Assembly: GCA_019638595.1 (NCBI GenBank)
Contig: JAHBTJ010000007.1
Span: forward strand, 1-64,000
From: Chitinophagaceae bacterium
GTDB taxonomy: Bacteria; Bacteroidota; Bacteroidia; Chitinophagales; Chitinophagaceae
Direction of reading: 5' to 3'
Length of the DNA stretch: 64,000 nucleotides
The position numbers and the translations under genes are program-made. The notes beneath the pieces were generated by a model. It saw only the letters and a program-made list of their open reading frames with translations. It did not search any database and was not told where the DNA came from. Positions 27,486 through 28,559 of this stretch are shown in pieces (position 1 is the stretch's first letter; each line of letters opens with the position of its first letter).

Positions 27486-27546
27486 TTTTGTTTTGGTATT
27501 ACAGCTTTCGCCCAGGCCGCTGAGGATGATGATTGGTGGGGTAGTG

Positions 27547-27618
27547 TAGCCTCGACAGGAATCGAACCTGTATCTGGAGCTTCGGAAACTCTTATACTAT
27601 CCATTGTACTACGAGGCC
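27547..27618 (-). tRNA. tRNA-Arg (anticodon CCG)
   Basis: On the minus strand the sequence folds as a cloverleaf: acceptor GGCCTCG pairing with CGAGGCT (one G-U), D-arm region GTACAATGGATAGTAT, anticodon loop TTCCGAA giving anticodon CCG, and T-arm ACAGG-TTCGATT-CCTGT. The 3' CCA is not encoded. It should decode CGG. A damaged second copy lies immediately upstream at 27681-27814. Confidence 0.93.
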
Positions 27619-27680
27619 TTATGTAAGGCGGAGGTCCTGAGTTATCATTCGGGACGCCAACCTGAATTATTCATTTTCAT

Positions 27681-27814
27681 AGGAATCGAACCTGCCCGCC
27701 CGACTGGCGCCAGTCGAACGGGTATCCGGAGCTTCGTTCCAACCGTAGGCCGGGATCATACTATCCCCGCCCGAACGTTCCGTCCGGTACGGGCGGGCAT
27801 TGTACTGCGAGGCC
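27681..27814 (-). pseudogene. Disrupted tRNA-Arg copy carrying GC-rich palindromic inserts
   Basis: The segment repeats the neighbouring tRNA-Arg in pieces: AGGAATCGAACCTG (27681-27694), a GGAGCTTCG block (27723-27736), ATACTATCC (27758-27766) and ATTGTACTGCGAGGCC (27799-27814) on the plus strand. Between them lie a 28-base insert (27695-27722), a 21-base block replacing 9 bases of the anticodon arm (27737-27757), and a 32-base insert (27767-27798). The first and third are palindromic and GC-rich (arms CCCGCCCG/CGGGCGGG in the third). The 3' acceptor strand is missing and the anticodon is destroyed, so it cannot be a working tRNA. Confidence 0.8.
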
Positions 27815-27845
27815 TTGTGGAATTTCAAAATTTGAAAATGAACTA

Positions 27846-27867
27846 ATTTGAAAATGCATTTTCAAAT
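27846..27867. repeat. 22-bp perfect AT-rich palindrome
   Basis: The half-site ATTTGAAAATG is perfectly inverted around 27856/27857. Further copies of AATTTGAAAAT or ATTTTCAAATT flank it (around 27833 and 27891). It lies just after the marC stop and may form a 3' hairpin, but no T-run typical of an intrinsic terminator is present. Confidence 0.6.
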
Positions 27868-27885
27868 CTTCAAATTGTTTAATTT

Positions 27886-28461
27886 TCAAATTAATCCCGG
27901 TGCATTGCTGGCAAATATTTTTACTGCAATGGCGAGCAATATTACGCCAAAAAATTTACGTACGGCAATTAAACCGGCATTACCCAGCAGCCTGGCTATC
28001 AGTCCCAGCGATTTCAGCACCACAAATATGATGACCAGGTTGATAATAATGGCGGCCAGCAGGGTAGTTTGCCCGTAGTTCGCTTTGAGGGAAATAATGG
28101 TGGTAAGCGTTCCCGAACCGGCTATTAAAGGAAAAGCAATAGGAACCAGCGTAGCGGCTTTCACGTCTTTTTCGCTCTTAAAAAACTCCATCCCCAGCAC
28201 CATTTCCAGTCCCAGGATGAAAATCACTATAGAACCACCTACGGCAAAAGATCTTACATCCAGCCCTAAAATGTGTAAAAACCCTTCCCCGGCATATAAA
28301 AAAACGATCATGAGTGCCCCCGAAATAACAGTGGCCCTTAATTCCTTAATAGGACCCGATTTTTGTTGTATGGAGATGAGGATGGGAATAGAGCCAATAA
28401 TATCAATTACAGCAAACAGTGTAAAAACTACTGTAAGCAACTCATTAAAATCAATGGGCAT
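27886..28461 (-). CDS. MarC family integral membrane protein
   Basis: The protein has six hydrophobic segments over 191 residues from the chosen start (MPIDFNELLTVVFTLFAVIDIIGSIPILISI). The family motif (NELL-V-F-LFAVIDIIGSIPI) and the later VPIAFPLIAGSGTLTTIISL and GVILLAIAVKIFASNAPGLI blocks are characteristic of the MarC/UPF0056 family. These are inner-membrane proteins of uncertain transport role; the early link of MarC to antibiotic resistance was not upheld. An upstream ATG at 28479 would add six residues. It follows a small membrane protein gene on the same strand with a 98-bp gap. Confidence 0.9.
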   Translation of the reverse strand: MPIDFNELLTVVFTLFAVIDIIGSIPILISIQQKSGPIKELRATVISGALMIVFLYAGEGFLHILGLDVRSFAVGGSIVIFILGLEMVLGMEFFKSEKDVKAATLVPIAFPLIAGSGTLTTIISLKANYGQTTLLAAIIINLVIIFVVLKSLGLIARLLGNAGLIAVRKFFGVILLAIAVKIFASNAPGLI

Positions 28462-28559
28462 AATGCTGAATTTGAGCAAAGGTATACGAAAGAAATATCC
28501 CTGAACCGGTAAACAGTATTATCAAAACGTATAATCCCGTTGAAATAGCAGCGGGGAGC

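Follow-up and report, generated by a model that had tools for sequence, protein, structure and literature searches.

Why does a bacterial chromosome keep, beside an intact tRNA-Arg(CCG) gene, a spare copy of that gene that is split by GC-rich palindromes? The locus lies in the window, by which we mean the whole stretch of DNA analysed here (64,000 nucleotides from a Chitinophagaceae bacterium). A sequence-only reading had described tRNA blocks kept in order with palindromic inserts, and alignment with relatives bears this out, together with the lengths it gave for the D-arm insert (32 bases, 27766-27797) and the T-arm insert (28 bases, 27695-27722). It had also located the copy, which begins three bases beyond the start given and truly spans 27678-27814(-). 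The substitution that it saw in the anticodon arm is real, but its sizes are a 19-nt palindrome for 7 nt (nt 28-34) and not 21 bases for 9. The features of the locus are as follows.

27546..27618, minus strand: intact tRNA-Arg(CCG), the working copy (ARAGORN; Rfam RF00005, 60.1 bits)
27624..27664, minus strand: spacer from the split copy to the intact tRNA, alignable with G008 and G009 (alignment)
27678..27814, minus strand: spare tRNA-Arg copy, split by three palindromes and lacking the 3′ half of the T-stem and the acceptor strand (alignment with relatives)
27678..27694, minus strand: tRNA block 4, T-loop and part of the T-stem (alignment)
27695..27722, minus strand: 28-bp palindrome in the 5′ strand of the T-stem, no tRNA bases lost (alignment; RNA fold)
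27723..27736, minus strand: tRNA block 3, anticodon nt 35 to the variable region (alignment)
27737..27755, minus strand: 19-nt imperfect palindrome TCCCGGCCTACGGTTGGAA in place of 7 nt of the anticodon arm, nt 28-34 (alignment)
27756..27765, minus strand: tRNA block 2, the remaining D-arm (alignment)
27766..27797, minus strand: 32-bp palindrome CCCGCCCG...CGGGCGGG in the D-loop at nt 17|18, no tRNA bases lost (alignment; empty site in G009 and G011)
27798..27814, minus strand: tRNA block 1, acceptor 5′ strand and 5′ part of the D-arm, nt 1-17 (alignment)

In tRNA orientation, the split copy lies upstream of the intact tRNA, between it and a reading frame (27886-28479(-)) that we take to be marC, for a MarC-like protein. 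Tested as a functional tRNA within the window, the split copy was called neither by ARAGORN nor by Rfam at the gathering score, and it has a counterpart of 76% identity in G008. The pattern of the 32-bp palindrome matches once in the window and in none of 100 shuffles. Folded as RNA, the 28-mer forms a 12-bp hairpin with two G.U pairs (z −4.4, 0 of 200 shuffles as good), the 32-mer folds more weakly (z −2.0, 8 of 200), and the whole copy folds moderately better than shuffles (z −2.1, 5 of 200). For the spacer, a hairpin is predicted in the G009 version only (fold of that version). Short repeats of the TTTTCAAATT type lie at 27820-27890, upstream of the split copy, and similar sequence flanks some dispersed CCTGCCTGCC palindromes.

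We compared the tRNA-Arg(CCG) locus across 12 genomes of a Terrimonas/Agriterribacter-type genus, of which G000 is the window genome. A single tRNA-Arg(CCG) with no copy within the stretch read is found in G003, G004 and G007 and at the second tRNA locus of G010 (C5); G001 has a single tRNA and, by reading of the letters, an apparent nuclease remnant. An upstream copy with the anticodon-arm palindrome and without the two GC-rich inserts is present at the same place in G009, G011 and G010 (C9), in G010 as seven tandem copies. G000 and G008 carry an upstream copy with inserts at both sites, the insert sequences differing between them, and G002 and G006 carry a different upstream copy bearing a D-loop insert. 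The upstream copies in G008, G009, G010 and G011 have variants of the anticodon-arm palindrome at the corresponding position. In the alignment, both the D-loop insert (at nt 17|18) and the T-arm insert are flush, with no target-site duplication beyond one ambiguous base. Because relatives hold a copy without them, comparison of the aligned loci shows the two GC-rich palindromes of the window copy as clean insertions into an older copy that already bore the anticodon-arm palindrome. At L110 (G010:C9, about 73.1-74.2 kb of the contig), seven pseudo-tRNA-Arg units of ~132 bp stand in tandem upstream of the intact tRNA and share a spacer.

A GIY-YIG nuclease gene is absent at the window locus. In G002, G005, G006 and G008 such a gene lies just downstream of the intact tRNA-Arg(CCG), and after it comes another copy of the tRNA whose D-loop and T-arm both contain palindromes; presence or absence of the nuclease at Arg-CCG thus varies among species of the genus. 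Scanning with the window's MarC-like protein as query yielded 80 loci, and extra Arg-CCG copies were found at few of the opened loci beyond the genus (e.g. L167, L183, L210, L218). We also considered a dispersed tRNA-derived element and rejected it: with a 191-nt query against 38 genomes, the unit was found solely at the relatives' tRNA-Arg locus and the palindromes alone elsewhere.

The arrangement is not peculiar to tRNA-Arg. Across the genus, family and phylum sample, spare copies of several tRNAs adjoin the intact one and are split by GC-rich palindromes; by sequence, the palindrome in an extra copy sits in one arm or replaces a short stretch, often of 7-10 nt. A first batch comprised 79 split copies at 144 distinct tRNA loci, most of them fetched for holding a nuclease or palindrome, and a second comprised 64 split copies at 107 loci that overlap in part with those of the first. 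Pooled, the two batches yield 99 unique split segments. Of these, 38 are of the TCCCG type (25 of the 38 replace 7-10 nt), 21 of the CCCGCCCG type (20 of the 21 lose no base, 0 or −1), 9 of the TCCGCC type and 8 of the CCTGCCTGC type (6 of the 8 lose exactly none), and 23 fit no class. By our first palindrome score, 52 of the 79 first-batch copies reach threshold, where letter shuffles would give about 11. When symmetry was compared with that of random stretches, 32 of 56 unique first-batch segments are palindromic at p < 0.05 (2.8 expected), 19 of them below 0.01, and 24 are not significantly palindromic, nested palindromes being among those missed.

Positions repeat by tRNA across genera: D-loop 17|18 for Arg-CCG, nt 31-43 for Val, nt 12-24 for Pro, nt 28-35 for Ser-GGA and the anticodon arm for Ala. 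The Asp position varies, nt 42-50 in the family versus around nt 51-59 in other phylum genomes. For six of 19 tRNA types (Arg-CCG, Asn, Gly-GCC, Ser-GGA, Trp and Lys) the replacement ends right after the first anticodon base; the Lys segment is not a palindrome. Outside tRNA copies the same palindromes are dispersed. G000 has eight CCCGCCCG sites, and at the seven opened outside the window the fetched sequence contains no tRNA. The genus has 34 exact occurrences of CCTGCCTGCCGGCAGGCAGG, of which 14 are in tRNA copies (13 in the D-arm and one in the anticodon arm, flanks by reading), and 20 of 34 CCTGCCTGCC sites lie outside tRNA copies. The palindromes are thus not confined to the window, as the sequence-only reading had allowed they might be: with empty-site copies in relatives, families dispersed in the genus and recurrence in the arms of tRNA copies, its proposal of a small palindromic element is supported, and its question whether inserts recur at tRNA sites is answered positively. 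Its other suggestion, repeated template-switching at hairpins, finds no support; we set aside template switching from neighbouring arms since the palindromes are members of families present elsewhere.

Three further observations concern dispersed palindromes. At L102 and L106 (G004:C40 and G006:C38), TN-type GIY-YIG genes have CCTGCCTGCC palindromes at a distance of 68-72 bp, and the stretch contains no tRNA. At L031 and L032 (G000:C4; e.g. L031:4703-4725), another palindrome, CCCTCTTCCC...GGGAAGAGGG, recurs near tandem genes that are permease-like by reading, beside CCCGCCCG palindromes. At L392 and L396 of G007 (positions 1414 and 1985), a multicopy Y1 transposase gene has TCCCGGTTTTACCGGGA on both sides; this element is a possible carrier of TCCCG-type palindromes.

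Pfam GIY-YIG (PF01541) scores above cut-off in 12 of 12 genus genomes. The residues Y5, Y16, G18, R27, H31 and E63 are invariant in 11 chosen nuclease sequences and include the Tyr, Tyr-x-Gly, Arg and Glu that characterise the catalytic domain of the GIY-YIG superfamily, and the nuclease is free-standing, with its own reading frame beside or between tRNA copies on the same strand. NCBIfam gave no name for any of three nucleases; PHROG gave weak matches for two of the three ('homing endonuclease', E 6.6e-4; 'endonuclease', E 2.7e-5). By sequence profile, the closest solved structures are UPF0213 GIY-YIG proteins and SLX1 (1zg2, 1ywl, 7cq2); we know of no tRNA link for either. From the genus Pfam matches we picked and opened 40 loci with short frames: at 21 of them ARAGORN finds a tRNA in the stretch, always on the nuclease's strand, and the other 19 comprise, by reading, 13 of a second type with a TN motif (ILTN, IITN, IVTN, IMTN), four contig ends and two that are neither. 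We then added family loci, 30 from one scan and 40 chosen from its list, and counted distinct reading frames. Of the 128 short GIY-YIG frames that are not of the ILTN type, 84 have a tRNA no more than 300 bp away (75 loci), in all 84 cases on the same strand, versus one of 15 ILTN-type frames. The remaining 44 include 19 with a tRNA further off, 11 at a contig end without a tRNA in the stretch and five of TN type that were missed by the motif used to set the ILTN type apart (groups may overlap). By reading, the ILTN-type genes resemble UPF0213, and 14 of the 15 are not near tRNAs, unlike the tRNA-linked type. Of 61 genomes sampled from the phylum, a few of them belonging to the same family, 36 have GIY-YIG matches, and 22 of 30 opened loci lie within 300 bp of a tRNA, all on the same strand.

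In most cases, copies of one and the same tRNA flank the nuclease gene on both sides. Among 101 nuclease genes with a tRNA within 1.3 kb, 78 are flanked by same-tRNA blocks both upstream and at the stop codon. A tRNA copy is found at the stop in 79 (60 degenerate, 19 intact), and in 57 the stop codon falls inside the tRNA copy or within 5 nt of it. Where the tRNA at the stop is intact (20 by a separate count), same-tRNA blocks are also found upstream in 20 of 20. Tandem units are seen at L258, L264 and G134:C34, and at the last (G134:C34:6988-9766, another Bacteroidota genome of the same class) eight GIY-YIG units follow one another about 365 bp apart. Beside two GIY-YIG units at L340 (G080:C1, about 4.958 Mb), ARAGORN calls a tRNA with the stop-reading anticodon TTA, possibly an altered tRNA copy or a suppressor.

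By comparison of these loci, nuclease lineage is shown to track the tRNA, and palindrome family to track the lineage, with the nuclease usually between same-tRNA copies and in places in tandem units. On a tree of 78 nucleases, the tRNA label changes 29 times (minimum 21) versus a shuffled mean of 61.5, with 0 of 200 shuffles as low, although the nuclease trees have 86-87 columns and many unresolved forks, near-copies inflate clustering and most loci were fetched for holding a nuclease or palindrome. Asp, Ala, Asn, Leu-CAA and Leu-TAA each make up one clade; 6 of 7 Met and 9 of 10 Arg-CCG nucleases group together; and Arg-TCT, Val, Pro, Ser-GGA, Phe and Lys are each spread over more than one clade. 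In a larger tree, of 108 nucleases, palindrome class (five classes, 52 rows) changes six times, or seven before row L266 was reclassed by hand, versus a shuffled mean of 24.5 and a lowest value of 19 (0 of 500 as low); the classes were defined after the data were seen, and 56 of the 108 rows have no classed copy. Insertion versus replacement changes three times on the nuclease tree against a shuffled mean of 16.8, with L435 and L349 as exceptions to the split. There are three cases in which the tRNA is not the one expected from the nuclease lineage, and in each of them the palindrome matches the nuclease: (i) L210 has an Arg-CCG tRNA, a nuclease of the Arg-TCT/Leu clade and palindrome CCTGCCTGC, (ii) L274 has an Arg-TCT tRNA, a nuclease from the other half of the tree and palindrome TCCCG, and (iii) L332 has an Arg-CCT tRNA, a nuclease of the Arg-CCG clade and palindrome CCCGCCCG. 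That palindrome position and type follow tRNA and GIY-YIG lineage points to the nuclease target and not to hairpins as such, and the earlier suggestion that the element favours structured DNA is to this extent not upheld, though many sites do lie in tRNA arms.

Counts of dispersed palindromes agree with this coupling for one family. CCTGCCTGCCGGCAGGCAGG occurs 8, 4, 5 and 6 times in the four genomes whose nuclease of the matching clade is full-length versus 3, 2, 1, 1, 3, 1, 0 and 0 times in the other eight (p 0.002; p 0.03 with tRNA sites removed), values that are optimistic because the species are related. For CCCGCCCG, counts show no clear trend by eye with presence of the Arg-CCG nuclease among the genus genomes. 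It is plentiful in G000 (8), G004 (7) and G007 (5), where no Arg-CCG nuclease is seen at that locus, so that CCCGCCCG dose does not follow the nuclease there.

We further took unselected censuses of two genomes. The window genome has 48 distinct tRNAs, with a nuclease at four, partial copies at seven and both at two; five of the seven tRNAs with partial copies have no nuclease nearby, and an eighth partial copy, at Ala, is seen by eye only. G007, counted with slightly different cut-offs, has 40 tRNAs, with a nuclease at seven (two of which share the same nuclease matches), copies at 15 (the palindrome check covering part of the set) and both at five; 10 of the 15 have no nuclease nearby. The association of copies with nucleases has a Fisher p of 0.096 in the window genome, 0.055 in G007 and 0.004 when pooled. 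That copies are commoner than nucleases fits relics and is no proof of them. A mixed-identity tRNA cluster in the window genome (G000:C20:5085-7630), one member of which is called SeC, has the look of a mobile-element tRNA array.

We consider it probable, at roughly 0.6, that the split tRNA of the window is a relic of a chromosomal, tRNA-targeting, homing-like GIY-YIG selfish system present in many Bacteroidota chromosomes. With similar assurance, three things make up the core of this system: a tRNA gene, extra, palindrome-bearing copies of that tRNA and, on the strand of the tRNA, a small free-standing GIY-YIG gene. Cleavage, homing, mobility and palindrome insertion are steps that we infer from sequence comparison. 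The nuclease would cut its tRNA gene, and repair from a nuclease-bearing chromosome would copy the nuclease together with a fresh tRNA. The palindrome would mark the spare copy, probably at or near the nuclease's target site, and a copy so marked could neither be cleaved nor decode, the cell being served by the intact one. On this view the window copy would preserve traces of two waves, the older of the TCCCG type in the anticodon arm and the later of the CCCGCCCG type in the D-loop and T-arm, the latter type being the kind that accompanies the Arg-CCG nuclease lineage. Under this mechanism, one would also expect cutting of the intact tRNA next to the nuclease, and differing flanks may be one way in which it escapes. 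Doubtful, but conceivable, is the stronger form in which every GIY-YIG lineage has a palindrome family and a tRNA target of its own and in which the nuclease, or the repair that it provokes, would insert the palindrome at the cut site.

Three other explanations have to be weighed against this relic of a tRNA-targeting nuclease. Short palindromes of the REP kind, which are linked with RAYT (Y1) transposases, might be moved by a transposase of their own (e.g. Y1), land anywhere and survive in redundant tRNA copies, with the nuclease a bystander that merely duplicates tRNAs. The dispersal of the palindromes speaks for this (seven non-window CCCGCCCG sites of G000 without a tRNA, 20 of 34 CCTGCCTGCC sites outside tRNA copies), as do the TCCCG palindrome flanking the multicopy Y1 transposase in G007 and the many split copies without a nuclease. 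Yet landing anywhere accords poorly with the finding that 14 of the 34 exact CCTGCCTGCC sites fall within tRNA copies (D-arm 13, anticodon arm one, flanks by reading) and with positions shared across genera for several tRNAs, and a bystander nuclease with the tracking of nuclease lineage by insertion mode and palindrome class, the latter unmatched in 500 shuffles. No class B palindrome is found at 25 Y1 loci in four genomes. On balance we regard this explanation as unlikely.

The copies might instead be kept as tRNA-like RNAs, acting as decoys or antitoxin-like repeats against a tRNA-cutting nuclease. Type III toxin-antitoxin arrays have a comparable layout, and tandem tRNA-like arrays do occur here (seven units of about 132 bp in G010; Ala, Asp and Asn arrays). 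In Ala and Val, some hairpins stand in for an entire arm and the outline of a cloverleaf would be preserved, and the six of 19 tRNA types whose replacements end right after the first anticodon base have them end where tRNA-cutting toxins cut. Many replacements, however, remove half an arm only (Arg-CCG, Asn, Gly-GCC), palindrome changes do not consistently preserve RNA pairing (A.C on the RNA strand in Asp), the window copy folds moderately better than shuffles (z −2.1, 5 of 200 as good), and copies are often without a nuclease nearby. We regard an RNA function as improbable. Finally, palindromes could break the homology between two tRNA copies and so shield the nuclease gene from recombinational deletion, in which case any heterology would do and palindromes would merely be available. 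The same-tRNA blocks on both sides of 78 of 101 nuclease genes and the lack of any tRNA block longer than 41 nt among 158 in first-batch split copies are in keeping with such a role, but it explains neither the lineage-specific palindrome type nor the copies at tRNAs without a nuclease, and we hold it to be very improbable.

To our knowledge, free-standing GIY-YIG endonucleases beside tRNAs have been known solely from phages, and our literature search, in which subscription papers were mostly outside coverage, found no report of a chromosomal GIY-YIG/tRNA association. SegB of phages T4 and T6 is a free-standing GIY-YIG homing endonuclease beside tRNA genes of a wide isotype range, with tandem amplification of tRNA and nuclease; in T6, the 5′ region of tRNA-Tyr and the 3′ region of segB share microhomology and are proposed to recombine (PMC13096335). 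As far as the accessible part of that source describes it, the system described here resembles SegB in having a GIY-YIG gene adjacent to tRNAs, in its many isotypes and in its tandem tRNA and nuclease units, and the stop codon of the bacterial nuclease in or near a tRNA copy recalls the T6 layout. The SegB motif RAWTSGAAC is, by our own comparison, the complement of the tRNA T-loop. There are also differences: SegB resides in phage genomes and these genes in bacterial chromosomes, the bacterial lineages keep to one or few tRNAs, and the accessible part of the SegB report describes no palindromes in tRNA copies (PMC13096335).

REP palindromes are likewise short, GC-rich and dispersed in the genome, sometimes inside genes, as the accessible part of the source has it (PMC3733652). 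In contrast to them, class B inserts directly abut the tRNA blocks and bear neither a GTAG nor a CGTC tag, and the palindromes here are tied to GIY-YIG lineage and tRNA arms, class B being absent from the 25 Y1 loci. Rickettsia palindromic elements and organelle palindromes are also small palindromes that insert into genes; they share this with the present ones, to the extent that we could compare them, and differ in host, and we know of no nuclease linked to them. The nuclease part of the system thus resembles phage SegB, and the coupling to palindromes and the chromosomal spread are unreported in the literature searched; there is a real chance that the pairing of nuclease and palindrome is a new kind of system.

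If the stronger form of the reading is correct, Bacteroidota would harbour a minimal nuclease-palindrome mobility system, for which we found no precedent, with tRNA genes serving as both landing site and safe haven. A chromosomal system at many tRNAs, with extra tRNA copies and palindromes matched to nuclease lineage, would account for a class of tRNA pseudogenes and of small palindromic repeats in this phylum. The position of the palindrome would predict the cut site of the enzyme, giving a marked target for each nuclease, and the origin of short palindromic repeats, a long-standing question, would become testable with enzymes of about 80-90 residues.
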